Below, piece after piece: positions 25,832 to 48,901 of a stretch of 64,000 bases of DNA. Below the pieces are notes generated by a model, which made no database searches, had not been told where the DNA came from, and saw only the letters and a program-made list of their open reading frames with translations. Position 1 is the stretch's first letter. The number at the start of each line of letters is the position of its first letter. Origin of the DNA: Flavobacteriales bacterium (GTDB lineage Bacteria; Bacteroidota; Bacteroidia; Flavobacteriales_D; Sanyastnellaceae); contig JAGQVX010000003.1 of the NCBI GenBank assembly GCA_020437755.1, positions 1 through 64,000 on the forward strand, given 5' to 3'. The position numbers and the translations under genes were made by a program.

Positions 25832-26572
25832 GTGAATTCAGATAATTCAGTTAAGTTTGTCGCGAAATTTTCGAACGTGGTAGAAGCACACTTACAAAAG
25901 TATTTCTCTTTCGCATTTTCGATTGATTGTGTCGTATTCGGATTTGACGGCAATGATTTGAAGGTGCTGCTCATCGAACGTGGCGAAGATCCGTTTAATG
26001 GGTATTGGGCACTTCCGGGTGACCTGGTTGCCCCTGATGAGGATCTCGAAGTATCGGTGAACCGTGTGCTGAAGGAGTTGACCGGATTGAGCAATCTGTA
26101 TTTCGAACAGGTGGAGACTTTTGGTGAAGTTGATCGCCATCCGCTTGGGCGTGTGTTGACAACCGGGTATTATACACTGGTTAAGATCAGCGACTATCAA
26201 TTGAATCCATCTTCATTTGCATCTGAAGCGCGATGGTTTAAGGTGAGTGACGCCGTGAATTTGGCTTTTGACCACAACAAGATTCTGGACTCTTGTGTTT
26301 CCCGCCTTCAAAAATCAGTACGTACCCGACCTATTGGTTTTGAGCTGTTGCCTCCCAGCTTCACCCTGACGGAACTTCAAGGGCTTTATGAAGCTATATT
26401 GAACATCAAGCTGGACATTAGAAATTTCCGAAAAAAGATTTTGCAAATGCACTTTTTGAAGGAAACCGGCAATCTGCAGGAAAACGTTTCTCACCGACCC
26501 GCAAAGCTCTACCAGTTTGATGAAGAGCAGTACAACTTGCTCAAGAGTAAGGGCTTCAATTTCGAGGTTTGA
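25832..26572 (+). CDS. Nudix-type transcriptional regulator (NrtR/AraR-like)
   Basis: The protein has a Nudix fold followed by a winged-helix domain (about residues 150-225), the layout of NrtR-like regulators. In Bacteroidota several of these sense sugars and control sugar-use genes. The Nudix box region (GDLVAPDEDLE then NRVLKELTGL) has lost two of the acidic residues of REUxEE, so pyrophosphatase activity is unlikely. The GTG start at 25832 is questionable: an exact -7 box lies at 25852-25859, inside the frame, and a GTG at 25877 would give a better-fitting N-terminus (VEAHLQKYFSFAFSIDC). It precedes the sugar symporter and is the best candidate for the locus regulator. Confidence 0.85.
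   Translation: MNSDNSVKFVAKFSNVVEAHLQKYFSFAFSIDCVVFGFDGNDLKVLLIERGEDPFNGYWALPGDLVAPDEDLEVSVNRVLKELTGLSNLYFEQVETFGEVDRHPLGRVLTTGYYTLVKISDYQLNPSSFASEARWFKVSDAVNLAFDHNKILDSCVSRLQKSVRTRPIGFELLPPSFTLTELQGLYEAILNIKLDIRNFRKKILQMHFLKETGNLQENVSHRPAKLYQFDEEQYNLLKSKGFNFEV
25852..25859 (+). promoter_or_regulatory. Possible promoter -7 box for the Nudix regulator
   Basis: TAAGTTTG matches TAnnTTTG and lies 17 bp before the alternative GTG start at 25877. If used, translation must begin downstream of 25832. Confidence 0.4.
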
Positions 26573-26657
26573 TTTCACCAAATTTTGTTTCTCCGATAAT
26601 TTTATACACCTTAGCGTAAAATTCACAATAACTATTTGTTGGTTTTAGGTTAAGGGT

Positions 26658-28296
26658 ATGAATCTGTCCACTTTAGATATCACCATTCTGTGTGTGTACT
26701 CCGCAGTGATCTTGTCAATTGGATTATATGTTTCCCGCCGCAAGAAAGGCGTGGAGGCGGATTCAACTTCTTACTTTCTAGCGGGAAAATCGCTTCCCTG
26801 GTGGGCAGTGGGAGCTTCCCTCATAGCTGCCAATATCTCGGCTGAGCAGTTCATAGGAATGTCGGGATCCGGTTTCGCTATTGGGTTAGCGATAGCCTCT
26901 TATGAATGGATGGCGGCCATCACTCTGTTGTTGGTTGGGAAATACTTCTTACCTATTTTCATCGAAAAAGGATTGTACACGATTCCTGAATTTTTGGAGA
27001 AGCGCTACAATGCTCAGGTCAAGTCTATTCTAGCTGTCTTTTGGGTAGCCTTATTCATTTTTGTCAACCTGACTTCGGTGCTTTATTTGGGGGGAACTGC
27101 CCTGGATACCATAATGGGATCGGGAGACGGTTCATTGGTGGGCTACAGTATTGTTGGATTGGCCTTGTTCACCGCAGCATATTCCTTGTGGGGGGGGCTT
27201 TCCTCGGTTGCCTGGACGGATGTGGTACAGGTAGTGCTGCTTGTGGTTGGGGGATTGGTGACTTCGGGAATTGCATTGTATCATGTGTCTCCCGACCATT
27301 CTGTGATTGGCGGATTGAACTACATCTGGCAGCAAGTCCCCGACAAGTTTGAAATGATCCTTGATTCCAGTCATCCGGAGTACAGTAATCTTCCCGGAAT
27401 TGCCGTTTTGGTAGGCGGAATGTGGATAGCGAATATTTACTATTGGGGGTTCAATCAGTACATCATTCAGCGAACCTTTGCGGCGAAGAGTTTGGCCGAG
27501 TCGCAAAAAGGGATTGCATTTGCAGCATTGCTTAAAATGATCATTCCACTGATTGTGGTTGTTCCCGGAATTATTGCTTTTGTCATGTTCAGGGACAATC
27601 CGGATGTAGCCGCGCAATTTACCCTGGCCGATGGCAGTGTTGCCAATGATAAGGCCTACCCCTGGTTGATTTCTACGTTTGTGCCCGCCGGACTGAAAGG
27701 TTTGGTGTTGGCGGCTTTGGCGGCTGCCATTGTGTCATCTTTGGCTTCAATGGTGAATAGCACGTCCACCATATTTACGATGGACATTTACAAGCCGTTG
27801 ATCAACAAGAATGCATCGGAATCACGGTTGGTTAGTACCGGTCGTATTACGGGTGTTGTCGCGCTGTTGATTGCGGTGTTGGTAGCTCCTTTGCTAGGGG
27901 GTATTCCTCAGGCTTTCCAATACATTCAAGAGTACACTGGGATTGTAAGTCCGGGAATCCTGGCGATTTTTATGCTCGGATTGTTCTGGAAGAAGGCAAC
28001 GGCAAGGTCGGCAGTGATTGGCGCACTCTCGTCGATACCCATCGCACTTTACCTGAAAGTTGCTCCCAAAGGATGGTCTGATTTGGCCATCTTTCCCGTG
28101 GATGCACCAAATGGGTATCACCTTCTTATTGACGGTAGCGGTTATGTTGTTGGTTTCGAAGCTTGAAGGCCGTGGTGCTGATGATGAGAAGGGGATCGAG
28201 CTCAAGAAAGATATGTTCAGAACAACAAGTTCATTCAATGTAATGGCTTTTGCCGTTATGATCATGGTTGTTGCACTCTATTCGATTTTCTGGTAG
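26658..28296 (+). CDS. Sodium/sugar symporter (SSS family), frameshifted
   Basis: This solute:sodium symporter would import the sugar released by the locus. The first 480 residues show many membrane helices and SSS features (YFLAGKSLPWWAVGASLIAANISAEQFIGMSGSGFA; AAALAAAIVSSLASMVNSTSTIFTMD). Near 28092-28100 (CTTTCCCGTG) the frame shifts: frame one ends at TGA 28166. The natural continuation, starting WMHQMGITFLLTVAVMLLVSKL, is in the +1 frame and ends at 28296. Removing one C of CCC restores an intact protein of about 545 residues. It may be a sequencing error, a recent mutation, or a slippery site. The next gene starts at the final G of its stop. Confidence 0.85.
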
Positions 28297-30194
28297 TGAG
28301 AAAAATCCTGCTTTACATAGCATTCCTCTCAAGTGTCCAGGTGGTTGCTCAAACCACTGAGGTGAAGCCTTTCCCCTTGCAGGGATTTAACATTAGCGGG
28401 AACTACAGATTTTACGCGCAACATCGATATTTTACGGACCCGTACGCGTTTCAGGTGGTAGATGGGGATCCGGTGTATTTGCAAGAGCGCAGCATACTTA
28501 TTGGCGATGCTACACAGCTTCCCGAATTAACACTTAATATCTCCGGTAATCCAACCCCTCGAACTTCTTTTGGAACCGATTTGGTTGTGTGGAATCAGAA
28601 TACAGGGGGATTCGATTATTACAGGAATCTGCAGCTTGGCGTGAATTTGTATGGATCGTTTTCCACGCCTCTTGCCAACTTCTCGATTAAGGCCGGTGGA
28701 ATTCATTGGCATAGCATGACTGCGTTTACCATGATGTCGTTTGCGGGGTACAACCGATACAGCATATTTGAGCGCAACCCCTGGGATCCGATCTATCGAG
28801 ATGTTGATCGAAGATATAAGGATTATTACACCAAAGGAGCTATTTCTCAGGATACCCGTTGGGCACAACAGGCTGTGCAAGGGGTGCTATTGGACATAAC
28901 GGAATTGCCACTGGGTCTGGCGGTCAATTTGGTGTACGGAAAGACTCAAAATGCCGGATCGGCATTTATTCAGCAGACAAGCGATCCATTGGCAGATTCA
29001 ACGTCGGGTTCGTTTATACAGTTTTTCGATAATACGATTCCGAACAATGCGTACGCGGGCCGACTTATAAAGACAATAGGTTCCCATAGGGTGAGTTTCA
29101 ATACGTTCAACCGCATTTCTTATTCCGATGCCAAAGCAACGGAGCGCATAGAGAATCATGTATATACCCTGGAAGGGGTCTTTGAAGGGCAGAAGATTAG
29201 CGTTCAGGGCGAGTTTGGATTCGCCCGATATTCCGATGTGATTCAGGATCCGGGTTATGGAGAATTGGCGACTGTGAAGGTAAAATTGCACAAGAAGTTG
29301 ATTGGTTTGCCGCTGGAGATTCACGCGTTCCGGATCAGTCCGAATGCAGTAAACAACAATGGGGAGTTTGTGAATACAGCGATTACAGAACTGCCTTCGG
29401 CGGCAGCAGGAAGTACCACCATTATTGGAGCGAATGGTGTATTGACTCAAACCGGAAGTGCAATGCTGGGGATTGGACAGATGGCCAATAATCGACAAGG
29501 GTTGAACTTGAATACCGATATCCAGATTCAAAAGCTAAAAGTCATTTTAGGTTGGGGCGTTGCGAAGGAAATTGAAAGATTGGGGAATAAAATTACCTAC
29601 GGACATACCATCAACGGTCTGACCATGTCGAGATTCTGGAGGTGGTCGTTTCCTTCCAATGTGGGTCCGTATTCAAGGACGAGTGTCTTGTACCGTGGCG
29701 TTTTTGAAACGGTGGAACTCACCGATCTTGGCGATAATGGGGATGTAGTTCACGACAAATACTTCAACAATATTGAGGCACAGGTGAAGTACAGCTTCAA
29801 CCTGTTTGGCAAGCCTTGGTACCTCTTTTATTTGGGAGCGTACAATTCAGCTCAACCTAAATTTTCAGCGATTACTGTGTTCAACGAGGATGCGTATATC
29901 CGTCTGTATTCGCACCAGGTGGAAAACTACTATCACGTGCATCCCAAATGGGTAATTGCCCAATATTTCGGCTATGAGCGCGTAGTGGCCAATTACAGCA
30001 CCCTCGTGGACCTGCAGTCGAAGCGTCCGCGCAACCAGGAAGGGGTCGCTGTTGGGCTGGGACTGGATTATCAAATGGCAAAAAATACATTCCTCTTTGT
30101 GAGGCACCGCTACTTCCGGTTTGAAGACCGGAGCTATGAACTGGACCGGTTTGCCGGACATGAGACAACGGTGGAAATCAAAATTAATTTCTGA
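28296..30194 (+). CDS. Outer-membrane beta-barrel protein, 632 aa, unknown family
   Basis: The protein has a signal (MRKILLYIAFLSSVQVVAQ), then a long series of alternating beta strands, and ends in TTVEIKINF with a terminal Phe, the outer-membrane barrel signature. There is no plug domain or TonB box, so it is not SusC-like. It starts at GTG overlapping the symporter stop (TAGTG) and ends overlapping the next gene (TGATG). In this context it is a candidate glucan or oligosaccharide porin. I do not recognise a named family. Confidence 0.8.
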   Translation: MRKILLYIAFLSSVQVVAQTTEVKPFPLQGFNISGNYRFYAQHRYFTDPYAFQVVDGDPVYLQERSILIGDATQLPELTLNISGNPTPRTSFGTDLVVWNQNTGGFDYYRNLQLGVNLYGSFSTPLANFSIKAGGIHWHSMTAFTMMSFAGYNRYSIFERNPWDPIYRDVDRRYKDYYTKGAISQDTRWAQQAVQGVLLDITELPLGLAVNLVYGKTQNAGSAFIQQTSDPLADSTSGSFIQFFDNTIPNNAYAGRLIKTIGSHRVSFNTFNRISYSDAKATERIENHVYTLEGVFEGQKISVQGEFGFARYSDVIQDPGYGELATVKVKLHKKLIGLPLEIHAFRISPNAVNNNGEFVNTAITELPSAAAGSTTIIGANGVLTQTGSAMLGIGQMANNRQGLNLNTDIQIQKLKVILGWGVAKEIERLGNKITYGHTINGLTMSRFWRWSFPSNVGPYSRTSVLYRGVFETVELTDLGDNGDVVHDKYFNNIEAQVKYSFNLFGKPWYLFYLGAYNSAQPKFSAITVFNEDAYIRLYSHQVENYYHVHPKWVIAQYFGYERVVANYSTLVDLQSKRPRNQEGVAVGLGLDYQMAKNTFLFVRHRYFRFEDRSYELDRFAGHETTVEIKINF

Positions 30195-31909
30195 TGGCAA
30201 AGTACCTGAGCATAGTCATCCTTGTGCTGATCTCCGCGGTTTCAGTGGGTCAGCAGCGCAAATTCCAGATCAATGGAAGTGCGCGGGGATACTACTTTGA
30301 CAATGATCTGGATATTGACGATCAGCTGGATTCAATCACGACCCGTAAGGCCAATTATGGCCATACCTTGATGGATCTCGCGGTGAGTGTTTTTCCGGAG
30401 AAGAATACAGAGATCATCGGCACATTCCGTATTCGCAATGAGCTCGGTGGATTTTGGGGAGCGGGAACTTCGTTTTTGGTGCGGCAGCTCACCCTGCGCG
30501 GGGTTGCCGGAGGGGTGGTGCGTTATGAATTGGGAGATATTGATTTGAAGTTGACACCATACACCTTGCACAACTTTGAAGAAGAGGGAATGGTGAACGA
30601 GGCTGATGTATTTGCCCTTAGAAGAGATATTGTGCATTATGATATGTTCTACAATGCCGGTAACACGTGGCGCATGCAAGGGGCTAATGTTGGTTTCGGG
30701 CTGAATTTTAGCAGGCTGATCGATCAAATCAACGTTAAAGCTTTTATCACCCGACAACGCATGACTGATGGGCTAGCAGTGCCCGAACGGTTGTACGGAG
30801 GAGGAACTCTTCAATTGGTTCAAAGTGAACAGTTTAATCTTAGTGTGAACAGCGTTAATATTTTCGATCTGAAAGAAACGATTCCGGATAGTATTCAGTT
30901 CAAGAACAGTGTGCACTCTATGCATTTGGCGTATGCCAAGCACCTTGCGCCAGAATGGAAAGGTGGCGTCGAAGGAGAGGCCGGATTCAGCGAAACGCGC
31001 TACATCAACTACTCTGATACGCGGGCTCCGGAGCAGATGGGGGATTGGTTTTATGATGTTGGTTTGAATCTCCAAAGTCAACCCAATGGAATTCGTATCA
31101 AGCTGGGGTACAAAGATATAGGTGCTGATTTTCTGTCGCCCGGAGCTCAGACCAAACGCATCAATTATGAGAAGTACCCCGGAGTATTCCAGCAAATCAC
31201 CAATGATGCTATTGGACGACCGATGAGCTATTCCGACGTGATTAGTGGAGCTGCGGAAACGAGTGTGCGCATTTCAGAAGAGCTGCTCGTTTACAATCCG
31301 GCGTATGATAATGCCACGCCCTATGGCGCGGCTACTCCCAATCGTAGAGGTACCTACCTGAATGTTGTGCGTGAAGATACGGTGGGATTTCGCGAGATTT
31401 TTGTGGAGGCCGCATACCTGACACAATCGAGAGGAACGGGGACCCTGCAGAAAAAGAAATTCATTGTTTTCAAGGCAGGGGCAGATGTATACTTTAATGA
31501 TTGGATGGGGTGGAAGAACGATTTGAAAATGGATCTGGGTGTTCGGTTTGAAAATACCTCACGCAGCGGCGAGGCTTATGAAACCATTACGCTTAACAGT
31601 ACCATGGTTGACGCCGGACTGACCTGGGAATTTGTATCCAATTTTGATGTAATGCTCGGAGCGAAGATGCTGATGGCCGATGGTAATGCGTTTGTAGATC
31701 TCCGCAATCGCTACAACACGATAGAGAACTTTGCTATTGCCGATGTGAGTTTTACAGAGAATCTGTATGCTGCCGGATTGCGCTACCGATTTAACGAACG
31801 AAATGCTGTGTCGGCCCACTACCAAATGTTCAATATTGTGCACGCCGATGCACAATTGGTTGATTATGGGATTACTCAATTCAGCTTTTTACTTAGCTTA
31901 AAATTTTGA
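30194..31909 (+). CDS. Second outer-membrane beta-barrel protein, 571 aa, unknown family
   Basis: A signal peptide (YLSIVILVLISAVSVGQ) precedes a strand-rich body ending in QFSFLLSLKF, again a barrel-type terminus. It lacks TonB-dependent receptor features. Coupled by a 1-bp overlap to the preceding barrel and by a 2-bp gap to the following lipoprotein, it is part of the same operon. The pair may work together as transporter and partner, in the place usually held by SusC/SusD; this is inference from position. Confidence 0.8.
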   Translation: MAKYLSIVILVLISAVSVGQQRKFQINGSARGYYFDNDLDIDDQLDSITTRKANYGHTLMDLAVSVFPEKNTEIIGTFRIRNELGGFWGAGTSFLVRQLTLRGVAGGVVRYELGDIDLKLTPYTLHNFEEEGMVNEADVFALRRDIVHYDMFYNAGNTWRMQGANVGFGLNFSRLIDQINVKAFITRQRMTDGLAVPERLYGGGTLQLVQSEQFNLSVNSVNIFDLKETIPDSIQFKNSVHSMHLAYAKHLAPEWKGGVEGEAGFSETRYINYSDTRAPEQMGDWFYDVGLNLQSQPNGIRIKLGYKDIGADFLSPGAQTKRINYEKYPGVFQQITNDAIGRPMSYSDVISGAAETSVRISEELLVYNPAYDNATPYGAATPNRRGTYLNVVREDTVGFREIFVEAAYLTQSRGTGTLQKKKFIVFKAGADVYFNDWMGWKNDLKMDLGVRFENTSRSGEAYETITLNSTMVDAGLTWEFVSNFDVMLGAKMLMADGNAFVDLRNRYNTIENFAIADVSFTENLYAAGLRYRFNERNAVSAHYQMFNIVHADAQLVDYGITQFSFLLSLKF

Positions 31910-31911
31910 TA

Positions 31912-32913
31912 ATGAGGACTTTCGGAATATACATAATGCTTGCTTTGCTGGCTGTATCCTGCCGCAAGGAAGACGAAACCGCCATTGATGGTCCGGATCT
32001 GAATGACTTGTTTGGTCCATTCTCCATCGTTGAAGAAATTAAAATTAGCCACCAAACGGTGAATTTCCCCGTTGATGGCAACGTATTTTATAGTGGTGAA
32101 TTGTCAAAAAACACCACCTGGGAAATCAGCATCACCGGAGCCTCAACCGGGGCGCAACGCACGATTACCGGGTTTGACCGTATCCTTTCCATCGAGAATA
32201 CCGCATGGAACGGCGGGGCTACTAATTTCCCCGGTTTCGGTTTGGAAGATGCTTATATCGAACTGGTATTTCCCGACGAACCGGAAGCTCCGATCATCAG
32301 AGACACGGTAACCATTGCGGGCACCAAAATCGATGATGGGTATTTCATTACCGGATTCGAAGAGGGCCTTGGTTCGAATTGGACCGTTTTCAATCAAACT
32401 ACTGTCGCGGGTTCTATCCAATGTGGTTCAGGCGAAGCGGCCAAGGGCAATTGCCTGTATAGTTTTGCCGGAGCAGTGCCCTGGGACTGGGCCATCGGTT
32501 CGGTCATGATTCGCCCTGATGAAGGCACATTTGGGCTTCCGGCATCGGCGTCCAACCTGTTTTTCAATATGGGCTTCAAGGCCATAGAAAACTACGGCCC
32601 CACTAATTCGTTCATACTCTTCTGGTTTGATGAGGACGATAATGGAGACGGCGTTTTTGATGAAAACACCGAGGATCGATTTACATACGAGTACTGGTCA
32701 ACCGGAAATCAGTGGGATCTGATCAGCATTCTGTACAGCAGTCTGAAAACCGATGCAGAAGGCAATCCGGTGGAAACTGCTGGAAACGGGTTGCCCGAGC
32801 CTGCCAAACTCGTGTCGATCAACGTCTTTTTCCTGGCCAATCCCGACAATGGCTTTTCCGAAGCACAGGTGGATCATTTGATTTTCACAACCAATTCTCC
32901 CTATACCCCTTGA
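31912..32913 (+). CDS. Surface lipoprotein, putative glycan-binding
   Basis: The 333-residue lipoprotein has the signal MRTFGIYIMLALLAVSC followed by RKEDE. An Ig-like N-terminal domain (KISHQTVNFPVDGNVFYSG) is followed by a jelly-roll-like domain with GFEEGLGSNW and later a Trp/Asn-rich segment. The layout resembles surface glycan-binding proteins of carbohydrate loci, but no family is assigned. The ATG at 31912 is preferred over an in-frame TTG at 31906. Its TGA overlaps the TTG start of the next gene. Confidence 0.75.
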   Translation: MRTFGIYIMLALLAVSCRKEDETAIDGPDLNDLFGPFSIVEEIKISHQTVNFPVDGNVFYSGELSKNTTWEISITGASTGAQRTITGFDRILSIENTAWNGGATNFPGFGLEDAYIELVFPDEPEAPIIRDTVTIAGTKIDDGYFITGFEEGLGSNWTVFNQTTVAGSIQCGSGEAAKGNCLYSFAGAVPWDWAIGSVMIRPDEGTFGLPASASNLFFNMGFKAIENYGPTNSFILFWFDEDDNGDGVFDENTEDRFTYEYWSTGNQWDLISILYSSLKTDAEGNPVETAGNGLPEPAKLVSINVFFLANPDNGFSEAQVDHLIFTTNSPYTP

Positions 32914-34046
32914 GATATTTGGCATACATAGCGTTTGGTGCATTCGTGCTCGCCGGTTGTGGAGTTTCGTTCCAATCCGGTCCGCTGTACGACGCCTACG
33001 AAGAACCTCCCGCATCACAGCAAATGGATGCCGTGATTTTTGAAGATGCCGTGGGAACCATGTGGAATTCCCTGGCCGATTGTGGTGATTTTGAGGTTGT
33101 GCATGATAGGGTACATTCAGGCTCCAGCGCCATACGCCTGTCGTGGAATAAAGGAAATTGCGAATGGATCGGTTTCGGCAATAGTTTTTCCAACTGGACG
33201 CCTACGGATATGTCGCAAATCCGTCATAATCTGGCACTTACCTTCTATGTGCGTTCAACCGACAAGCCGGTGAATGCGATTCCGATTGTGGCATGTATGG
33301 AAGATGCCGGGGGTGGGGGGAGTTACCATTTTATGGATGCGTCAAAGTATCTTGTCGGCCTCACCATTGATTCTACATGGAAGCAAATGATCGTGCCACT
33401 GTGGGATTTTCCAATTATCGAAGAAGAAGTTGATATTTCAGCCATTCGGCAAATGCAATTCCAGCTGGAAGGTTCGGGATCGTTTTATCTCGACGATATC
33501 AGGTTGATTCCGTACAGCAAGGAAGAATACGCAGCCATGCGGGAAGAAGTGGAAGGCATGAAGCCAAATGGTTCTCCACAGCAAACAATCTATCGACCTG
33601 AGCACTTCAAGGAAGATGCCTGGGGCACGGCGAACACAGACTGTCACCAACTTCAGCAAATCAATTCCAACGGTTCTGCGCAAATTAAATGGACCATAAA
33701 CGAACCGGTTTGCGATTGGGCAAAATGGGGAATCAACTGGAATGGTTGGTACGCTGTTAATATGCGAGGCGCTGATGCTTCATCGCAGTTGAGTTTTGAG
33801 TTCAAGTCGGTCAAAGGAGCTTCCTTTTCGGTATACCTTGAGGACTTTGCCGGACATTCATGCGAAGTGATGAGTATTGACGGTACATCGCAGACTGGAG
33901 TAGAATGGCAGCATATTGAGATTCCCCTGTCTACCCTTCCGTTGAAGGAGAAGGGCATAGCACTCGACCGTGTGAAGCAACTGTATTTTGTTGGCGAACA
34001 AGCAGGAGAAGTATGGATCAGAACCATAAAACTGAAACAGTTATGA
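32910..34046 (+). CDS. Lipoprotein with two CBM-like beta-sandwich domains
   Basis: The start is TTG at 32910, giving LRYLAYIAFGAFVLAGC, an SPII signal; the longer frame upstream overlaps the preceding gene by 200 bp and was rejected. Two similar jelly-roll halves follow: IFEDAVGTMWNSLADCGDF... ending SGSFYLDDIRLIPY, and HFKEDAWGTANTDCHQL... ending VGEQAGEVWIRTIKL. Both have the WIGFGNSF/WAKWGINWNGW aromatic pattern of CBM11-like glucan-binding modules. It is probably a cell-surface beta-glucan binder. The stop overlaps the GH3 start as ATGA. Confidence 0.75.
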   Translation: MRYLAYIAFGAFVLAGCGVSFQSGPLYDAYEEPPASQQMDAVIFEDAVGTMWNSLADCGDFEVVHDRVHSGSSAIRLSWNKGNCEWIGFGNSFSNWTPTDMSQIRHNLALTFYVRSTDKPVNAIPIVACMEDAGGGGSYHFMDASKYLVGLTIDSTWKQMIVPLWDFPIIEEEVDISAIRQMQFQLEGSGSFYLDDIRLIPYSKEEYAAMREEVEGMKPNGSPQQTIYRPEHFKEDAWGTANTDCHQLQQINSNGSAQIKWTINEPVCDWAKWGINWNGWYAVNMRGADASSQLSFEFKSVKGASFSVYLEDFAGHSCEVMSIDGTSQTGVEWQHIEIPLSTLPLKEKGIALDRVKQLYFVGEQAGEVWIRTIKLKQL

Positions 34047-36304
34047 GGACAACCCATTGGTTAGGCATCCTATTTGGCGTATGCCTGATACTTACCTCAT
34101 GCAGCGGCGAGAAAACGACGTCAAGAGCGACTACACCACAAGATCCTCAGATTGAAGAGATACTTGCCGGGATGACCATTGAGCAGAAAGTGGGGCAAAT
34201 GACACAAATCAATATCGATGTCATTTCCGTGGGTGAGATTTACAACCTGGAAGAACCCCATCGACTCGATTCCATCAAACTGGACTCGGCAATCAAGCAT
34301 TATTTCGTGGGTTCAATACTGAACGTTGGAGGCCACACCTACACGCGGGAGCATTGGCAGGAGCTTATTACGCAAATCCAAACCAAAGCCACCGAGGAAG
34401 GCAATCACATACCTGTTATTTACGGAATTGACGCCATTCATGGTGTGAACTATACGGTAGACGGGACGCTTTTCCCGCAGCAAATCGGTCAGGCAGCCAC
34501 CTGGAACCCTGAATTGGTGCAGAAAGCCGCATCTATTACGGCTTATGAATGCAGGGCAAGTGGGATTCCGTGGAATTTTTCTCCGGTGTTGGATCTTGGC
34601 CGACAACCGCTGTGGTCGCGATTTTTTGAAACCTATGGTGAAGATGTTCACCTCGCGCGTTCTATGACTCGTGCCGTAATTAATGGTTATCAGGGAGAAC
34701 CGGGAGATCCGGTCAAAGTAGCGGCTTGTATGAAACACTTCCTGGGATACAGCATGCCTTTGTCGGGCAAGGACCGTACCCCGGCCTGGATTCCCGAGCG
34801 CCAACTGCGTGAATATTTTCTACCAACGTTTCAGGAGGCAATTGATCAGGGAGCTCTTACCGTAATGATCAACTCAGGCGAGGTCAATGGAATTCCGGTG
34901 CATGCTGATCCTGACATACTCACCAAGTTGCTGCGACATGAGTTGGGATTTAAAGGGATCGCCCTTACAGATTGGGAAGACATCATCAAGCTCTACCGCG
35001 ATCACAAGGTGGCCAAAGACATGCGCGAGGCTGTGAAGATCGCTATTGACGCAGGAATTGATATGAGCATGACTCCCAACGATTATACCTTTAATGAAGC
35101 GTTGATCGACCTGGTGAAAAGCGGTGAAATCTCTGAGGAACGGCTCAACGAGTCATGTAGAAGAATTCTATGGGTCAAGAAACAAATGGGGCTTTTTGAC
35201 CATCCGATTCCTGACTTCGATGACTATCCGCTTTTCGCTTCTCAGGCGCACCGCGATGCCGCGCGACTAACCGCTGAGGAATCGCTTACGCTATTGAAGA
35301 ATGATGATCAGGTGTTGCCTCTTGATTCGGGGGTTTCGGTATTGGTGTGTGGTCCGTCGGCCAACTCACTCAATGTACTCAATGGTGCCTGGACCCACAC
35401 TTGGCAGGGTAGGGATGAGCAATACAATACCGGCGATGCCCTCACAATTGTGGAAGCTATCCGCAAGCATCATGTTTCCGGAACCGTTGATTATGCTGCG
35501 GGTTCGACGATTTATCAACCCGTTGACCTACCGGAGCTCATGGAAAAAGCCGATCGTGCCGATGTCATTGTCGTATGCCTCGGTGAAGAGCCATCTACTG
35601 AGAAACCCGGAGATATTGATGCCCTTGAACTTCCGATTGTTCAACGTGATTTATTGCGTTATCTGGCGGCAAAGGATAAACCCATCGTAGCCTTCTGTGC
35701 GTTTAATCGTCCGTTGATTATGAACGATTTTGAAGTGTTCGTGGACGCCATTGTTTACGGTTATCTCCCTGGTGATCAAGGTGGTGAGGCATTCGCCAAA
35801 TGCATTTTCGGTGAGATCAATCCGTCGGGTAAGTTGCCATTCACATACCCACGCTACCCGGCATCACTAGTGCCATACGACCATAAGTACACTGAGACGC
35901 TGGACATTCATTTTGGCAGGGAAGCGTTCAACCCGCAATGGGAATTTGGTTTTGGGTTAAGCTATTCCACCTTTGAGTATTCAGATTTGCGTCTTGACCG
36001 CACTGTCTATGGTGTTCAGGATACGATTCACGTCATGGTTGACCTCGCTAATGCTTCGGATATTCGGGGAAAGGAAGTTGTGCAAGTGTATATCACGGAT
36101 GAAGTAGCGCGAATCACACCGAGCGTAAAGCGGTTGAGAGGTTTTACTAAGGTAGATCTCGCCGGTGGAGAGAAAACCTCGATTGAAATTGATGTACCGG
36201 TACGAGAACTTGCATTTGTTGACGTAGATAACAAGTGGGTGGTTGAGCCGGGAGTATTCACTGTACATGTTGACACGCTACAGATTCCACTGGAAGTGAA
36301 ATGA
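34043..36304 (+). CDS. Glycoside hydrolase family 3 beta-glucosidase, lipoprotein
   Basis: GH3 enzymes remove glucose from the non-reducing end of beta-glucan oligosaccharides. The start at 34043 gives an SPII signal (LGILFGVCLILTSC). The N-terminal TIM barrel has MTIEQKVGQMTQIN, IPVIYGIDAIHGVNYT and KHFLGYSMP; the nucleophile Asp is in GIALTDWEDI. The C-terminal alpha/beta sandwich follows (TAEESLTLLKNDDQVLPL; IVVCLGEEPSTEKPGD), and an FnIII-like domain ends the protein. The length of 753 residues is normal. The protein likely works at the periplasmic side of the outer membrane, feeding glucose to the symporter. Confidence 0.94.
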   Translation: MRTTHWLGILFGVCLILTSCSGEKTTSRATTPQDPQIEEILAGMTIEQKVGQMTQINIDVISVGEIYNLEEPHRLDSIKLDSAIKHYFVGSILNVGGHTYTREHWQELITQIQTKATEEGNHIPVIYGIDAIHGVNYTVDGTLFPQQIGQAATWNPELVQKAASITAYECRASGIPWNFSPVLDLGRQPLWSRFFETYGEDVHLARSMTRAVINGYQGEPGDPVKVAACMKHFLGYSMPLSGKDRTPAWIPERQLREYFLPTFQEAIDQGALTVMINSGEVNGIPVHADPDILTKLLRHELGFKGIALTDWEDIIKLYRDHKVAKDMREAVKIAIDAGIDMSMTPNDYTFNEALIDLVKSGEISEERLNESCRRILWVKKQMGLFDHPIPDFDDYPLFASQAHRDAARLTAEESLTLLKNDDQVLPLDSGVSVLVCGPSANSLNVLNGAWTHTWQGRDEQYNTGDALTIVEAIRKHHVSGTVDYAAGSTIYQPVDLPELMEKADRADVIVVCLGEEPSTEKPGDIDALELPIVQRDLLRYLAAKDKPIVAFCAFNRPLIMNDFEVFVDAIVYGYLPGDQGGEAFAKCIFGEINPSGKLPFTYPRYPASLVPYDHKYTETLDIHFGREAFNPQWEFGFGLSYSTFEYSDLRLDRTVYGVQDTIHVMVDLANASDIRGKEVVQVYITDEVARITPSVKRLRGFTKVDLAGGEKTSIEIDVPVRELAFVDVDNKWVVEPGVFTVHVDTLQIPLEVK

Positions 36305-36336: not shown

Positions 36337-36340
36337 ACTA

Positions 36341-36357
36341 ATTGTCAAAAACACAGT
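36341..36357 (+). promoter_or_regulatory. Near-match operator ATTGT-N7-ACAGT
   Basis: ATTGT, seven bases, then ACAGT: one mismatch to the palindrome found before zwf and between the repeat proteins. It sits 4 bp past the -7 box, where a repressor could block transcription. Confidence 0.45.
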
Positions 36358-36374
36358 AAGATAATAAACAGGAT

Positions 36375-37694
36375 ATGAATAAGGTCATTTTGTATGTGGG
36401 AACAGCGTTGTTCGGTTTGTTCGCTTTCCCCGCGAACGCTCAAATGATTTGGGATGATTTTGATAATCCCGAATTGATCATCTATGACTATTTCGATGGA
36501 GTAGGTTTCGATCAGGGATATGCCAATCCGTCAACTTCGGGTATTAATTCTTCGGCAATTTGCGCACAATACAATCGAAATCCGGGCGTATTGTACGATG
36601 TGATTGTAATCAATCCCGCCGGTGGTACTCAAATGAATGATTTGTCGGGATATGTCGATGGTTCGCAAAATATGACCGTTAAAGTATATAGTCCGGCGGC
36701 CGGAATTACGGTTCAAATAACGTTGGAAGACAACAACATTGCTGGTCCTACCAACTACCCATCGGGTCGCCACAGTGAGTATCAGGCTACTACTTCGGTT
36801 GCCAATGAATGGGAAACTTTGACGTTTGAACTGACCAACCAACCTGATTTGTCCATTACCAATACGCAGACCAACCAACTGGTATTGTTGTTTGATCCGG
36901 GTTCCCTGACCAACACGGTTTTTCTTTTCGATGACCTGATGGGGCCCGAATTTACCAACCCTTGTGATGGAGTTACACCGGATCCTGCAATAGGAGACGA
37001 TTTTGAATGTCAGCGCAATGTGTCGTACAACTTCGTGAACGGTACGCTCGGACTCGAAGCCAATCCGGCACCCGATGCGGTGAATGGTTCGGACGGATGT
37101 GCGCGATTTACGAAGTTCATTCCACCTACTAATGATGGTGCTTTTGGAGGAGACTTGAGTTTTCCTTTCAGCTCATCTACCTTCTCCACAGCGGCAATAG
37201 ACTTGTACAGTCCTGCCGGCGCTCAGGAGTTTATTATCATCTTCCAGGATGCTACCAACAATGACGTGGCTCAAACGAACGTGCTCACGGCGGCATCGGC
37301 CGGTTGGGTAACCTATGAGGCCGACCTGGGATTGGTATCTTCGGGAACAACCATTGCGAAATACGTGCTCCTGCTCAACCCGGCAACGGATACAGAAGAT
37401 TACATTTTTCTGGACAACTTCCGATTTGGCGTAGGATCAATCAACGTGGAAGAAGGTCAGGTTCAACGTATTGAAGTATATCCGGTGCCCGTTGCGGACC
37501 AATTCAACATTGGAACTCCTCTCAGCAACGCCACTATTGAGGTACGCGATATGAAAGGCAGCCTTGTGTGGTCGCAAAGTCAAGTTACATCGTCAAACTG
37601 TGTTGTAGATAGTTCTACCTGGACAGAAGGTGTTTATATGTTGACTGTTCGACAGGACAATGGTGATGTACTCATTCGTAAAATTGTCAAGTAG
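36375..37694 (+). CDS. Secreted CBM-like protein with T9SS sorting domain
   Basis: The 439-residue protein has a signal (MNKVILYVGTALFGLFAFPANAQ), then two jelly-roll domains of similar layout: WDDFDNPELIIYDYFDG... ending FLFDDLMGPEF, and IGDDFECQRNVSYNFVNG... ending FLDNFRFGVG. A T9SS type A C-terminal domain closes the protein (IEVYPVPVADQFNIGTPL ... LIRKIVK). It has no catalytic motif and is likely a secreted or surface glucan-binding protein. It opens the second transcription unit of the locus and is followed closely by GH16. Confidence 0.8.
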   Translation: MNKVILYVGTALFGLFAFPANAQMIWDDFDNPELIIYDYFDGVGFDQGYANPSTSGINSSAICAQYNRNPGVLYDVIVINPAGGTQMNDLSGYVDGSQNMTVKVYSPAAGITVQITLEDNNIAGPTNYPSGRHSEYQATTSVANEWETLTFELTNQPDLSITNTQTNQLVLLFDPGSLTNTVFLFDDLMGPEFTNPCDGVTPDPAIGDDFECQRNVSYNFVNGTLGLEANPAPDAVNGSDGCARFTKFIPPTNDGAFGGDLSFPFSSSTFSTAAIDLYSPAGAQEFIIIFQDATNNDVAQTNVLTAASAGWVTYEADLGLVSSGTTIAKYVLLLNPATDTEDYIFLDNFRFGVGSINVEEGQVQRIEVYPVPVADQFNIGTPLSNATIEVRDMKGSLVWSQSQVTSSNCVVDSSTWTEGVYMLTVRQDNGDVLIRKIVK

Positions 37695-37698
37695 TCCG

Positions 37699-38511
37699 TT
37701 GAAATTCAGATCATCCATATCCATTTCTGTTGTGGCCCTGCTGGTTTTGACTTTGGCAGGTTGCAAGCAAAGTGATCCTGTTGAAGGGGAACTCTTTCTC
37801 GTGTGGTCCGATGAATTTGATGGTACAGAATTGGACGACAACAAGTGGGAGGCTATGATTGGTGATGGTTCCAATTATGGACTTTGGCTTTGGGGAAACA
37901 ATGAAGAACAGTACTATCGAGCGGAGAATGCCACGGTTTCGGGAGGATATCTGAAGATTAAGGCACAGGCACAGGAGTTTGGCGGACAGGATTATACCTC
38001 TGCCCGGATTCGAACAAAGGAGAAAGGAGATTTTAAGTATGGCCGTGTTGAAGCTTCCATTCGCATGGATGCTGTTGGTGGTCTGTGGCATGCGTTCTGG
38101 ATGCTCCCCACAGATGCGGTGGCGTCGTGGCCCGTTAGCGGTGAAATTGATATCATGGAATATGTGGGAAATCAGCCCGATGAGGTGTTGACTACGCTGC
38201 ATTTTGCCGATCAGTTTGGTAACCACCAGTACGAAGGTGAACCTCATGCCTTTGTCAATCAGAACGACTTTCATGAATTTGCCATGGAGTGGGATGAGAA
38301 CGAAATCGTGTGGTTCATAGATGATGAAAAAGTATACACCTTGTTTCGTCCGCAAATCGCTACCTGGCCCTTTGATGCCCAGTTTCATATTTTGCTCAAT
38401 GTCGCAGTGGGTGGAAATTTGGGAGGTGAAGTCAACCAAGCGGCCTTATCGGTTCCTCGCTACATGTATGTGGACTATGTGCGGGTTTATCAACGTCAGC
38501 AAGAATCTTGA
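37699..38511 (+). CDS. Glycoside hydrolase family 16 lipoprotein (laminarinase-like)
   Basis: This endo-beta-glucanase of the GH16 fold has the catalytic signature GEIDIMEYVGN intact. It is preceded by FLVWSDEFDGTELDDNKWE and by NNEEQYYRAENA, the pattern of the beta-1,3-glucanase branch. The TTG at 37699 gives an ideal SPII signal (SISISVVALLVLTLAGC) and a 4-bp gap to the upstream stop; an ATG at 37660 would overlap the previous gene by 35 bp. It should cut laminarin-type glucan at the cell surface. Substrate is inferred from branch pattern and neighbours. Confidence 0.9.
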   Translation: MKFRSSISISVVALLVLTLAGCKQSDPVEGELFLVWSDEFDGTELDDNKWEAMIGDGSNYGLWLWGNNEEQYYRAENATVSGGYLKIKAQAQEFGGQDYTSARIRTKEKGDFKYGRVEASIRMDAVGGLWHAFWMLPTDAVASWPVSGEIDIMEYVGNQPDEVLTTLHFADQFGNHQYEGEPHAFVNQNDFHEFAMEWDENEIVWFIDDEKVYTLFRPQIATWPFDAQFHILLNVAVGGNLGGEVNQAALSVPRYMYVDYVRVYQRQQES

Positions 38512-38514
38512 TCA

Positions 38515-39792
38515 ATGAACATTTGGAAGACATATGGATGTTGGTTCGCAATGGTTTTGCTCTCGGTTTCGGGGAGTGCAGGATCGCATGTTGAGGTGAT
38601 CCAAACTGAGACCGGGTATCAATTGTTGTACAACGGTGAGCCCTATTTCGTCAAAGGCGCGGGAGGAACCGTTGAGATGGATGTGCTGAAGAACTATGGC
38701 GGCAACTCCATTCGCACCTGGGGTGTTATGGACAATACCGATGAAATTCTAGATGAAGCATTACGTCACGGACTCACAGTGACCTTCGGTATATGGATGG
38801 GGCAGGAAAGGCAAGGATTTGATTATTCCAATAAAGGGGCAATTGAGGCACAAGTAGAGTATTTCAGATCCATCGTTCGAAAGTATAAAGATCATCCTGC
38901 CATCCTCGTTTGGGGCGTGGGCAACGAAGTTGATCTCGACTACACCAATTTCGATGTATGGATGTATCTCGAAGAATTGTGCAAGATGATTAAAGAAGAG
39001 GATCCCAATCATCCCACAATGACCGTTACTGCCGGATTGGATGTAGCTGAGGTTAAGCTCATACAGAAGTTTGTCCCCAGCGTCGATATTTTAGGTGTTA
39101 ATACCTACGGAGATATCTCCTACCTGCCCGAAGCCATGCGCTCTTACGGATGGACCAAGCCATACATGGTTACCGAATGGGGTCCCTATGGCTGGTGGGA
39201 GGTTGAACGCACAAATTGGGGGGCATCCATTGAGCAAACCAGCACAAGCAAAGCAGAAACATACGATGTGAGCATGAAGGCCATTCTCTCGGATCCACAA
39301 AATTGCCTGGGATCGTATGTCTTTTTGTGGGGGCAGAAACAAGAACACACCTCAACCTGGTTTGGCTTATTTACCGAGGATGGTCAGGAAACAGGAGCCA
39401 TGGATGTTCTGTGTAAAGCATGGACCGGAGAGTTGCCAGAAAATACGGCACCACGAATGACCGTTTTTTCGCTGGACGGTAAGTCGGCCTATGATAATAT
39501 CACTGTAAAATCGGGTCAGTCAATGATTGGAAATGCCCGGGTGATGGATGATCAGGACGATACCATTGTTTACACATGGCAGGTTATTCCCGAAAGCACG
39601 GACAAGAAAACAGGGGGGGATGCGGAACGCGCACCCAAACCTGTGAAAGGCGTGTTTTCGCGCGATTCTAAACTCAAGGACTCCGTTTCATTCGTAGTTC
39701 AGGAGCCGGGGCAGTACAGGTTGTTTCTGTTTGCTTCGGACGGAAAAGGTAAAGTGGCAACAGGGAATATACCCTTTAAAGTAGTAGAGTGA
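38515..39792 (+). CDS. Clan-A (TIM-barrel) glycosidase, secreted
   Basis: The 425-residue protein has a signal (FAMVLLSVSGSAGS), then a GH2/GH5-like TIM barrel: YFVKGAGGTVEMDVLKNYGGNSIRTW, acid/base Glu in LVWGVGNEVDLD, and nucleophile Glu in YMVTEWGPYGWWEV. A C-terminal beta-sandwich (about residues 305-425) resembles an Ig/FnIII domain. Clan-A families differ mainly outside these motifs, so the exact GH number is open. Context suggests a glucanase or glucosidase that helps degrade beta-glucan. It is linked to the kinase by a GTGA overlap. Confidence 0.82.
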   Translation: MNIWKTYGCWFAMVLLSVSGSAGSHVEVIQTETGYQLLYNGEPYFVKGAGGTVEMDVLKNYGGNSIRTWGVMDNTDEILDEALRHGLTVTFGIWMGQERQGFDYSNKGAIEAQVEYFRSIVRKYKDHPAILVWGVGNEVDLDYTNFDVWMYLEELCKMIKEEDPNHPTMTVTAGLDVAEVKLIQKFVPSVDILGVNTYGDISYLPEAMRSYGWTKPYMVTEWGPYGWWEVERTNWGASIEQTSTSKAETYDVSMKAILSDPQNCLGSYVFLWGQKQEHTSTWFGLFTEDGQETGAMDVLCKAWTGELPENTAPRMTVFSLDGKSAYDNITVKSGQSMIGNARVMDDQDDTIVYTWQVIPESTDKKTGGDAERAPKPVKGVFSRDSKLKDSVSFVVQEPGQYRLFLFASDGKGKVATGNIPFKVVE

Positions 39793-40667
39793 AAGGATAC
39801 AGAATAATAGCAGATAGCGGATCAACGAAGACCGATTGGGTAATCACACATCACAATCAATCAATTGTTGGTAAGGTTCATACCATGGGGTTCAATCCCT
39901 ATTTTCAAACCACAGAGTTCATTCGCTCTGAGGTGCAAAAGGGCTTCGAAACTGCAGGTTTCGACAGGGAAAGTGTGAGTGAAATACACTTTTATGGCGC
40001 GGGCTGTTCCTCTATGGAGAAGAGTTTAATTGTGGAGAAAGCCCTCGCAGGGGCATTCCCCAATGCTGAAATTCACGTGGATCACGACCTGATCGCAGCG
40101 GCGAGAGCTACATTGGGAACGCATGACGGCATTGCCTGCATTCTCGGAACAGGTGCCAATAGTTGCGTGTGGCAAGGGGGCAAGGTAGTTCACAACATTC
40201 CGTCTCATGGCTATATTTTCGGTGATGAAGGAAGTGGGTCCTACCTGGGTATTCGGCTGGTGAAACTCTACGTGGAAAACAGACTCGACCGGGAACTGAC
40301 CGGGCAGTTTGAAGATATGTTCCGACTTTCTCGTGAGGAAATCATCAATAAAACCTACCGTGAGCCCAATCCGAATGTTTTCCTGGCATCCTTTGCTTCG
40401 TTCTTTTCAGGTCGGATTCAACACCCCATATTGGAGCAAATCATGCGCACCGGATTTGAAGATTTCTTCAAAATCCGGGTAGCACTCTATCCCAATTTTC
40501 AATCGTATCCACTGGGATTCGTCGGGTCAATTGCCTTTTACTACCGCAACATTCTTGAGGAAGTGGCCGATCAATACGGAATGAAGATCCATAAGTTCAC
40601 CAAGTGTCCGATCGATGACCTTGTTGAGTTTCATATCAAGAATCCTACGGCCCATCTTATTGATTAA
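39789..40667 (+). CDS. BadF/BadG-type ATPase sugar kinase (GlcNAc-kinase family)
   Basis: This 292-residue ASKHA-fold kinase has ADSGSTKTDWVI (phosphate 1), ACILGTGANSCVW (phosphate 2) and GYIFGDEGSGSYLG (adenosine region), as in N-acetylglucosamine kinases of Bacteroidota. The GTG start overlaps the glycosidase stop. It is followed by zwf, pgl, edd and eda, which use glucose-6-phosphate, and no other kinase is present, so it may serve as glucokinase here. That is inference; GlcNAc remains possible. Confidence 0.85.
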   Translation: MKGYRIIADSGSTKTDWVITHHNQSIVGKVHTMGFNPYFQTTEFIRSEVQKGFETAGFDRESVSEIHFYGAGCSSMEKSLIVEKALAGAFPNAEIHVDHDLIAAARATLGTHDGIACILGTGANSCVWQGGKVVHNIPSHGYIFGDEGSGSYLGIRLVKLYVENRLDRELTGQFEDMFRLSREEIINKTYREPNPNVFLASFASFFSGRIQHPILEQIMRTGFEDFFKIRVALYPNFQSYPLGFVGSIAFYYRNILEEVADQYGMKIHKFTKCPIDDLVEFHIKNPTAHLID

Positions 40668-40789: not shown

Positions 40790-42274
40790 ATGTCGTTCAA
40801 ATCATTCTCTCTAGTCATTTTTGGTGGAGACGGGGATCTCGCCCTGCGAAAGATATTTCCTGCGATCTACTACCGGATTAAAGACAAACAAATCAGTGCA
40901 GGAAATCAAGTGCTGGCTGTGTCCCGGACAGAAATGGACACCGATACATTCATGGCTTTGGTTGTTTCACACCTCCAAAAGCATATCGAGAATTTGGACG
41001 CAGAAGCGCTGGAAATCTTTACTTCCATGATTTCCTTCATTAGTGCCGATCTTACAAAAGCAGAAGACTATGTGCCCATAAAAAAAGCGTTGGAAGAAGC
41101 AGCGTTGAGTCAGACGTTGTTTTATTACTCCACACCTTCTTCTTTATTCGGTACCATTTCGAGGTTGCTTCATGCCAATTCAATTCTCAACGATTCTTCC
41201 AAGGTTATTCTGGAAAAACCACTGGGTCTCGATTTGAACTCTTTTGAAGAGATTAATACGGAATTATCGAGGTACTTCGCGGAGCCTCAGATGTATCGCA
41301 TCGACCACTACCTCGGAAAGGAAACGGTACAAAACCTCATGGTGCTGCGCTTTGCCAACCACTTGTTTGAATTGGCCTGGAATGCGCAAAACATTGATAA
41401 CGTCCAAATAACTGTGGCTGAGTCGATTGGTGTAGAGAAACGAAAGGAGTTCTATGATGCATGCGGGGCGTTGAAGGATATGGTACAAAACCATTTGCTG
41501 CAGTTGCTTTGTCTGGTGGCTATGGAACCCCCGGCTACCCTCACGGCCGACAATGTACGCGATGAAAAGCTCAAGGTGCTGAAGTCGTTGCGCACGTACA
41601 ATCCGGGCAACGTACGCAAGTGGACCGTCAAAGGACAATACGCGCGAGGAGAGGTAGCCGATCAGCAGGTCAATTCATACCAGGAAGACATTGGTTCGTA
41701 CGACTCATCTACCGAGACTTTTGTGGCTCTGCGAACGTATATTGACAACTGGCGATGGGCGGGTGTGCCGTTCTATCTGCGCACCGGTAAGCGCTTGGAA
41801 AAAAGGTATTCCGAAATCGTCATTAACTTCAAAAGAGTACCGCACAATGTATTCCCTGCGGGCCCGAAAATCGATCGGAATAAGTTGATTATTCGCCTGC
41901 AACCTGAAGAGCATATCGAACTGGTGCAAATGGCAAAAACTCCCGGACCTGGTGGTTATCGCTACGAACCGGTGTCACTGAAACTCGATTTTATCGACAG
42001 CTTCGACCGGCGGTTCCCGGAGGCTTACGAGCGCCTGTTGATGGATGTGGTGCGCGGCAATCAAACGCTCTTTATGCGCGCCGATGAAGTGCGGGCTTCC
42101 TGGAAATGGATCCATTCCATTACCGATAGCTGGAACAAAACCAGTCAGGAAGTGGTGCTCTATAAATCCGGTTCAAAAGGTCCCGGCGATAAAGTGATGG
42201 AGCCCGGGGATGAGTGGTACGAATCTAAAAATGGCCATGACGCAAAGAAAGTTTCTAAGTTCTTCGGAACTTGA
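40790..42274 (+). CDS. zwf: Glucose-6-phosphate 1-dehydrogenase
   Basis: Zwf oxidises glucose-6-phosphate to 6-phosphogluconolactone with NAD(P)+. The 494-residue protein has the nucleotide-binding start VIFGGDGDLALRKIFPAIY and the active-site signature YRIDHYLGKETVQN. It also has conserved EKPLGLDL and PFYLRTGKRL. It is the first gene of a four-gene Entner-Doudoroff operon and overlaps pgl by 44 bp. Coenzyme preference cannot be decided here. Confidence 0.97.
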   Translation: MSFKSFSLVIFGGDGDLALRKIFPAIYYRIKDKQISAGNQVLAVSRTEMDTDTFMALVVSHLQKHIENLDAEALEIFTSMISFISADLTKAEDYVPIKKALEEAALSQTLFYYSTPSSLFGTISRLLHANSILNDSSKVILEKPLGLDLNSFEEINTELSRYFAEPQMYRIDHYLGKETVQNLMVLRFANHLFELAWNAQNIDNVQITVAESIGVEKRKEFYDACGALKDMVQNHLLQLLCLVAMEPPATLTADNVRDEKLKVLKSLRTYNPGNVRKWTVKGQYARGEVADQQVNSYQEDIGSYDSSTETFVALRTYIDNWRWAGVPFYLRTGKRLEKRYSEIVINFKRVPHNVFPAGPKIDRNKLIIRLQPEEHIELVQMAKTPGPGGYRYEPVSLKLDFIDSFDRRFPEAYERLLMDVVRGNQTLFMRADEVRASWKWIHSITDSWNKTSQEVVLYKSGSKGPGDKVMEPGDEWYESKNGHDAKKVSKFFGT

Positions 42275-42926: not shown

Positions 42927-42935
42927 ATTGGCACT

Positions 42936-44732: not shown

Positions 44733-44736
44733 AACG

Positions 44737-48705: not shown

Positions 48706-48732
48706 CGAAATGAATTTTAATGATTTGGGCAT

Positions 48733-48749
48733 ATTGTATACTTTACAAT
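48733..48749 (+). promoter_or_regulatory. Operator palindrome ATTGT-N7-ACAAT, copy A
   Basis: A perfect palindrome lies 28 bp upstream of the six-repeat protein start. The spacer is ATACTTT. Confidence 0.6.
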
Positions 48750-48864
48750 AATACGAATTCCCCTGAAATGGAGAAATCAGGATTATGAACACTCTTGAAG
48801 ACCTTATTAACTGTGCGGCATGCAACTGAAATGCACATGTCGCGAATTGAGCTGAATCCCGCAA

Positions 48865-48890: not shown

Positions 48891-48901
48891 CCTGTGTAGA
48901 A

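Follow-up and report, generated by a model that had tools for sequence, protein, structure and literature searches.

A predicted AraR-like regulator with a degenerate Nudix box, its putative operators in a laminarin-type locus of a Flavobacteriales bacterium, and an association between its DNA-reading residues and operator bases

A regulator gene at one end of a carbohydrate locus of a Flavobacteriales bacterium encodes an NrtR-family protein that resembles AraR, and we consider it probable that this protein, with its dead Nudix box, acts as a repressor and sugar switch of a laminarin locus via TTAxTGT-N7-ACAxTAA operators, from which it would be released by free sugar. The locus lies in a stretch of 64,000 nucleotides (the window; Table 1). 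Family, dead box, operator positions and the association between protein residues and operator bases were read from sequence; binding itself, repression, substrate and effector are inferred. In the proposed mechanism, the Nudix domain would serve as a catalytically dead sugar sensor, and the regulator dimer would bind TTAxTGT-N7-ACAxTAA (x = T in the window), thereby repressing the symporter operon, the operon at 36375, zwf-pgl-edd-eda and two repeat-protein genes. Free sugar derived from laminarin, most likely glucose entering through a glucose-type symporter, would be bound by R50, R102 and H148, rotate the winged helices and free the DNA, as L-arabinose does in AraR of Bacteroides thetaiotaomicron (BtAraR). 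Residues 196 and 197 (BtAraR 179 and 180) would set the base that is read at operator position 7.

Table 1. Features of the regulator gene and its locus, with positions in the window; residue numbers are those of the long frame.
Feature	Position	Strand	Basis or remark
Longest open frame of the regulator gene	begins GTG 25832, ends 26572	+	ORF list
-7-like box TAAGTTTG, inside the longest regulator frame	25852..25859	+	TAnnTTTG scan
Regulator gene, corrected start (likely)	25877..26572	+	GTG 25877, 231 aa
R50 = BtAraR R34 (sugar contact)	25979..25981	+	alignment
Degenerate Nudix box, residues 64-86	26021..26089	+	G->D64, E->V79, E->L83
R102 = BtAraR R86	26135-26137	+	alignment
H148 = BtAraR H131	26273-26275	+	alignment
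NrtR_WHD winged helix	26336..26518	+	Pfam
Recognition-helix stretch D195-K201 (D-I-R-N-F-R-K)	26414..26434	+	alignment to BtAraR
Degenerate predicted operator TTAGCGT-aaaattc-ACAATAA, between regulator and symporter	26611..26631	+	
SSF symporter, Na+/glucose-type	26658..28166	+	best solved relative 2xq2 (sodium/glucose cotransporter), E 3.7e-188
Four genes: no Pfam match; beta-barrel (outer-membrane), weak, below cut-off; no Pfam match; CBM30	28296..34046	+	
GH3, beta-glucosidase-type	34013..36304	+	Pfam
Predicted operator TAATTGT-caaaaac-ACAGTAA, 2 mismatches	36339..36359	+	21-bp scan
Secreted protein (sorting domain), GH16, GH2-C/clan-A-like hydrolase	36375..39792	+	Pfam
BadF-type sugar kinase	39789..40667	+	domain search
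Predicted operator AAATTGT-aaaaaat-ACAATAA	40740..40760	+	
zwf, pgl, edd, eda (Entner-Doudoroff pathway)	40790..45303	+	Pfam
Second GH16	45309..46316	-	Pfam
Secreted tandem-repeat protein, CBM48-like among weak repeat matches	46378..48705	-	
Predicted operator, 26 bp 5' of the repeat-protein gene on the minus strand (if this gene starts at ATG 48705)	48731..48751	+	
Predicted operator in divergent gap	48900..48920	+	
Predicted operator in divergent gap, upstream of the plus-strand repeat gene (if ATG 48985 is the start)	48928..48948	+	
Second repeat protein, same repeats as the 46378..48705 protein	48985..51186	+	

The open frame that an earlier note on this DNA assigned to the regulator is present in the ORF list, and the note's call for a corrected N-terminus, made because a -7 box falls inside the longest frame, holds. 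Matches of near homologues begin inside the long frame, at its residues 9-20 in one set and 14-16 in another, so that the in-frame GTG at 25877, which gives a start resembling those of the homologues, is taken as the likely start; one match that begins at residue 9 runs through a TAG, and two homologue rows that begin at residue 1 run past their own open-frame start. The promoter consensus used in the scans was TTG plus TAnnTTTG. The TAnnTTTG box lies inside the frame as claimed, but a TTG partner 17-23 bp 5' of it was not found, which leaves the predicted regulator promoter half-supported.

Three Pfam models match the regulator above their cut-offs: NrtR_WHD (96 bits, in agreement with the C-terminal winged helix noted earlier), AraR_C (60.7) and NUDIX (45.4). 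The protein thus has what places a regulator in the NrtR family, a Nudix-like N-terminal domain followed by the NrtR winged helix, together with an impaired catalytic motif, and it is the only match to NrtR_WHD in the whole genome. The box region reads D-L-V-A-P-D-E-D-L-E-V-S-V-N-R-V-L-K-E-L-T-G-L. Compared with the Nudix signature GX5EX7REUXEEXGU, as given in PMC4666351, E70, R78 and E82 are retained; the E after R is V79 and the second E of EE is L83, the two acidic replacements that had already been recognized, and the first G is lost in addition (D64). Since the alignment shows the same RVLxEL form in BtAraR, the dead box is shared with AraR and is no oddity of the window gene. BtAraR is also the closest solved relative (5bs6, E 9.1e-50), and when the AlphaFold model (mean pLDDT 94, built from 82 aligned sequences) is compared with the PDB, BtAraR chains occupy the first six ranks, followed by Shewanella NrtR. 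Closest solved relative, RVLxEL box and operator register all bear out the suggested likeness to NrtR-derived sugar regulators. Within the NrtR family the regulator resembles AraR without being AraR itself.

The BtAraR-DNA crystal described in PMC4666351 provides the register for the predicted operators. The crystal site is GTGT-N7-ACAC, in which K179 contacts G7 (Table 2 of that paper), R180 intercalates next to G7, and N181 and K184 read inner bases. Their equivalents in the window regulator are I196, R197, N198 and K201, respectively. The palindrome ATTGT-N7-ACAAT shares the N7 register with the crystal site, and its core differs at position 7 (G to T). The same source describes six DNA contacts (K179, R180, N181, K184, K204, R205) as conserved across AraR orthologues; the window protein has I196, R197, N198, K201, H221 and R222 at these places and differs at two of the six. 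The wing residues 204/205 were rejected as a cause of the base change, as H-R is found both with a G site (L048) and with a T site (L068).

Exact copies of ATTGT-N7-ACAAT are strongly enriched in the window (4 vs. 0.17 expected; none of 100 shuffles reaches 4), and with two mismatches the count is 40 vs. 46 by chance, i.e., without excess. Genome-wide, 11 exact sites were counted against 1 in the control. A genome-wide regulon was rejected, because ORFs of at least 90 aa contain six of the seven exact copies located elsewhere than in the window; the seventh (L004, at G000:C114:1549-1569) is intergenic, on a 4-kb contig. When up to two mismatches are allowed, the 21-bp form TTATTGT-N7-ACAATAA is found 25 times against 17 in the reversed control, so that degenerate matches elsewhere in the genome are mostly noise, and six of the 25 lie in gaps of the locus (26611, 36339, 40740, 48731, 48900 and 48928; four exact, the last three intergenic provided that the repeat-protein genes start at ATG 48705 and ATG 48985). 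An operator was looked for upstream of the window's own regulator gene and was not found; beside this gene there is no exact palindrome, only the degenerate site between regulator and symporter, counterparts of which (cttaGTGT-N7-ACAAtaag, ~685 bp past the regulator anchor) are present in L044/L129 (one contig of 76,723 bases), L130 and L133.

The regulator had been named the leading candidate to bind ATTGT-N7-ACAAT, and its predicted binding is now strongly supported by the crystal register, the upstream sites of relatives, the co-variation of helix residues and bases described below, and the location of four of the genome's five exact intergenic sites in the regulator's locus. Alternatively, the palindrome could be bound by an unlinked factor of the LacI, GntR or Crp type, with the Nudix protein regulating something else. 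Regulators are often unlinked, and the window gene has no exact operator upstream; in many relatives, however, sites do lie upstream of the regulator gene, and the site type tracks the helix residues of the adjacent NrtR-type gene, including the pair L134 and L135, which makes an unlinked factor very improbable. The 36339 site lies directly 3' of the -7 box of a predicted TTG-N20-TAAATTTG promoter (36306-36336), and at the predicted zwf promoter (40743-40774) both TTG and spacer are overlapped by the 40740 site. Such overlapping or abutting positions fit a repressor and speak against an activator working through the same operators, which we regard as improbable, even though the geometry at 48731-48948, where the promoter scan found no exact TAnnTTTG promoter, might allow activation.

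As stated in the earlier note, the symporter adjoins the regulator, which ends at 26572 while the symporter begins at 26658, and the absence of a second regulator from the locus fits the ORF lists (minimum length 110 aa for 24-42 kb and 150 aa beyond). Pfam searches covered part of the locus ORFs, and smaller genes fall outside the ORF lists. The combination of GH16, GH3 and symporter suggests laminarin, a beta-1,3-glucan, as the substrate, an assignment drawn from enzyme families. The third gene of the 28296..34046 group, one of those without a Pfam match, appears lipoprotein-like by reading. Between 46378 and 51186, two divergent secreted proteins consist, by reading, of near-identical tandem repeats of ~110 residues, with three predicted operators between them. 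The neighborhood was compared in 58 stretches from relatives (L043-L100), some of which overlap (e.g., L043 with L061 and L045 with L064). At least two of the symporter, the 28296-34046 proteins and the hydrolases recur beside the regulator in L043-L046, L051, L061, L064, L067-L078, L080 and L100, and Entner-Doudoroff genes occur in the regulator's own stretch in L051, L064, L066, L134 and L135; the full gene set of the window locus was not seen in the other stretches compared. The regulator of L100 (G049:C1:7446-8131) is split into two overlapping pieces by a frameshift or an assembly error, in a locus that is otherwise laminarin-type with a symporter 80% identical. Two laminarin-type regulator copies lie close to each other in L067 and are located on separate contigs in G071 and G078.

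For the effector, the pocket residues point to a sugar. In BtAraR, L-arabinose is held by R34, R86 and H131 (PMC4666351), and all three hydrogen-bonding residues are present in the window regulator (Table 1). The ADP-ribose phosphate contacts of Shewanella oneidensis NrtR (N43, K76 and R98; PMC4666351) correspond to E52, L83 and L105 and are not kept. Three retained AraR sugar residues together with the loss of the phosphate contacts favor a sugar. A classical NrtR that senses ADP-ribose or NAD was accordingly rejected on the pocket residues and on the NF050029 score: this model of an ADP-ribose-responsive repressor is the best NCBIfam match, but with 152.4 bits it stays far below its cut-off of 400. 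Sequence and fold are, moreover, nearer to AraR than to NrtR, and no NAD genes were noticed among the locus ORFs read, so that we give this reading almost no credence.

Which sugar is bound is a narrower question. From BtAraR to the window regulator, the pocket changes from F36 to E52, G48 to D64 and F49 to L65, perhaps giving a more polar pocket end, and almost all laminarin- and starch-type rows have G-D-L or G-N-L (L047 and L212 are among the exceptions). Because the glucose-type symporter presumably imports free sugar, glucose is the first guess and the favored effector. The same regulator and operators might instead respond to glucose-6-phosphate, gluconate, 6-phosphogluconate, KDPG or a laminari-oligosaccharide, which seems unlikely but deserves serious attention, as the whole Entner-Doudoroff branch is encoded in the locus, making its intermediates available, and as the pocket departs from that of AraR, among others at the three positions just named. 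On the other hand, none of 13 tabulated pocket positions has gained a new basic residue, the positions of the SoNrtR phosphate contacts are taken by E, L and L, and the G-[DN]-L signature is common to starch-linked paralogues, with glucose the presumable product of both kinds of locus.

The DNA-reading residues and the bases that they read appear to have changed together in relatives. Helix positions 179 and 180 are numbered as in BtAraR and correspond to residues 196 and 197 of the window protein. After inspection of TTGT relatives and their residues, GTGT was expected for proteins with K/R179-R180, and was then found. The second set comprised 60 loci of the same order chosen before their sites were inspected, some near-identical to first-set species and one (L129) on the same contig as first-set L044. 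Within 450 bp upstream, its KR regulators have 13 G sites, no T site alone, one A + T and 15 without a site (one stretch incomplete), and the other residue pairs 9 T, 0 G, 1 C and 21 without. The third set (41 loci) gave 25 G, 1 G+T and 5 without a site for KR, and 10 without a site for other pairs. When all sets are combined over 600 bp upstream, 76 of 153 rows have a single site type, with 53 G and 3 T for KR/RR and 20 T and 0 G for the others; the remaining 77 are without one and include two unscanned references. The earlier tree set, scanned over a wider region, gave 33 G for KR/RR, 3 T for KR (L093, L136 and L145), 33 T and 0 G for the others, and 43 rows without a site; this region included 640-900 bp past the anchor, so that some sites lie inside the next gene (e.g., L129), and the 33 G rows include BtAraR, whose G was set from the crystal. 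Both counts omit eight rows that are repeated places or broken genes (L043, L044, L045, L059 and its second piece, the second regulator of L067 and both pieces of L100).

When position 7 is left free in symmetric 21-bp sites, with the reversed pattern as control and ten further loci left out as superseded by longer stretches, the 12 TR/IR loci give T 23 and C 1 (control C4 A3 T2 G1), the 44 KG/KA loci T 83, C 4, A 2 and G 1 (control A4 T4 C2), the 89 KR/RR loci G 42, A 13, T 9 and C 1 (control T22 A16 G6 C6), and the 4 NR loci A 6 (control A2 T2 G1). The controls of T22 and A16 place T and A in KR loci at background, and the A excess in NR loci is small. Asymmetric sites outnumber symmetric ones in TR/IR (31 vs. 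24), KR/RR (82 vs. 65) and NR loci (13 vs. 6), and KG/KA loci have 17; most of these may be chance. A hybrid of one GTGT and one TTGT half, however, recurs in the regulator-symporter gap of IR/TR relatives, which is not what a strict code predicts. Near the KR regulators L137-L146, a convincing operator was not found. In L136 (G080), a KR regulator has a perfect ttttATGT-N7-ACATaaaa ~50 bp upstream of the anchor in place of GTGT. L048 and L049, at 47-50% identity, come from records named Algisphaera sp. and Acetofilamentum sp., either through a binning error or by transfer; in agreement with the KR residues of L048, a GTGT site lies 81 bp upstream in this relative.

Individual switches can be followed between close relatives. 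L134 (KR) has GTGT at 12939 near a repeat-protein gene and at 18704 by zwf; its near relative L135 (TR) has TTGT at 9112 by zwf and at 3541 after the regulator, and the site beside zwf (G or T) thus changes with residue 179 (Lys or Thr). The loci of the N179 starch-type regulators L187, L188, L215 and L247 contain TTAAYGT-N7-ACRTTAA-like sites; a mechanical palindrome scan of this group found nothing, and the degenerate site was first read by eye and then counted. Exact copies of it occur once in each of the four NR genomes (in G080 on another contig), as well as in G085, G100, G108 and G141, none of which yielded a whole N179 gene; in G108, an N179 gene fragment lies on the same contig as the site. 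A tree of the regulators requires the residue class to change 5 times and the site base 5 times, the site states of seven rows (L134, L066, L135 and the four NR rows) having been assigned by hand. Only 2 phylogenetically independent pairs were obtained (sign test p = 1), a number with which the test is incapable of significance. Independent changes are few, about five, and the residue/base counts carry no correction for kinship.

Many genomes encode a second, starch-linked regulator. In the L087 locus, this paralogue is accompanied by an alpha-amylase, GH65, a TonB-dependent receptor, a HAD hydrolase, PFK, Gap and a BadF kinase; other starch-type members were assigned by a BadF neighbor or by similarity alone. 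Laminarin and starch types were assigned by hand from match lists, the pocket and, for earlier rows, the tree, and the starch label requires 2 changes on the later tree and 1 on the earlier one. Residues 179/180 differ between the two copies in all 41 genomes in which both were compared, the pairs being, laminarin type first, KA/KR (24), KG/KR (12), TR/KR (1) and KR/NR (4); in G051, G071 and G078 one of two laminarin-type copies was used, and the laminarin-type copy of G027 was left out. Laminarin-type regulators on their own have KR (8), TR (5), KG (4), IR (3) or KA (3), and starch-type regulators on their own KR (14). We lean, with some reserve, toward a recognition code of two positions, in which K or R at 179 with R at 180 would read G7, I/T with R or K with G/A would read T, and N with R would read A, and which would keep the paralogous laminarin and starch regulators off each other's operators. 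In four genomes the case is swapped, with a laminarin-type KR and a starch-type NR. The starch-type regulator gene L210 (G004) has both GTGT and TTGT upstream, perhaps reflecting cross-control by the laminarin-type regulator.

Exact TATTGT-N7-ACAATA (T) and TAGTGT-N7-ACACTA (G) sites were also counted in 37 chosen genomes. Eight genomes in which only T-type regulators were found have 23 T (control 4) and 0 G (control 3); ten with both types have 40 T (control 1) and 8 G (control 2); eight in which a starch type but no laminarin type was found have 1 T (control 1) and 6 G (control 2); seven with a KR laminarin type, and no whole starch type found, have 5 T (control 5) and 25 G (control 2); and the four KR/NR genomes have 7 T (control 4) and 11 G (control 0). 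In addition, G062, G076, G085, G108, G129 and G141 encode a third NrtR-type paralogue that is more distant (32-36% to the L188 query) and in several of these genomes adjoins a GTGT-type palindrome. Because it lies beside some G sites of the KR-laminarin and KR/NR groups, these whole-genome counts were set aside as a clean test of the KR laminarin type, weakened as they are by the third paralogue's own sites.

Among characterized systems, AraR of B. thetaiotaomicron (BT0354; PDB 5bs6/5dd4/5ddg/5deq) is the nearest, with the same two domains, RVLxEL box, N7 register and TGT core, and a regulon that, according to PMC4666351, likewise couples a sugar transporter with hydrolases. The window system differs from it in the operator (G7 to T, with K179 to I) and in the pocket (GGF to GDL, F36 to E), and its locus combines beta-glucan with Entner-Doudoroff functions, linked arabinose genes being absent. 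XylR of the same species (BT0791) is described as a further sugar regulator of the NrtR family in this phylum (PMC3878776, PMC4666351) and differs in having a xylose regulon. NrtR of S. oneidensis (PDB 3gz5/3gz6) resembles the window regulator in fold and domain order, but controls an NAD regulon according to the published work and has the ADP-ribose phosphate contacts that the window regulator lacks. The starch-linked paralogue (e.g., L087) shares the family, the G-[DN]-L pocket in nearly every row and a BadF kinase in the locus, and differs by K179-R180 with GTGT operators (N179 in four genomes); a published characterization of it was not found in the mostly open-access literature searched.

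Laminarin ranks among the major carbon stores of marine algae. In the same mostly open-access literature, nothing was found on laminarin together with NrtR, or on an NrtR regulon with the Entner-Doudoroff pathway in Bacteroidetes, so that an NrtR-type laminarin regulator would be new as far as these searches reach. On Nudix regulators and laminarin, the one result was a plant paper, and on NrtR and maltose in Bacteroidetes it was PMC3878776. The novelty would lie in the laminarin/Entner-Doudoroff regulon and in the residue/base association with insulation of paralogues, the family itself being known. L134 and L135 provide natural matched controls for the change in specificity, and the association offers a cheap and direct handle on how a regulator family may change its DNA specificity without crosstalk. 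If the proposed mechanism is true, one protein and its operators would tie the capture of laminarin to the Entner-Doudoroff pathway.
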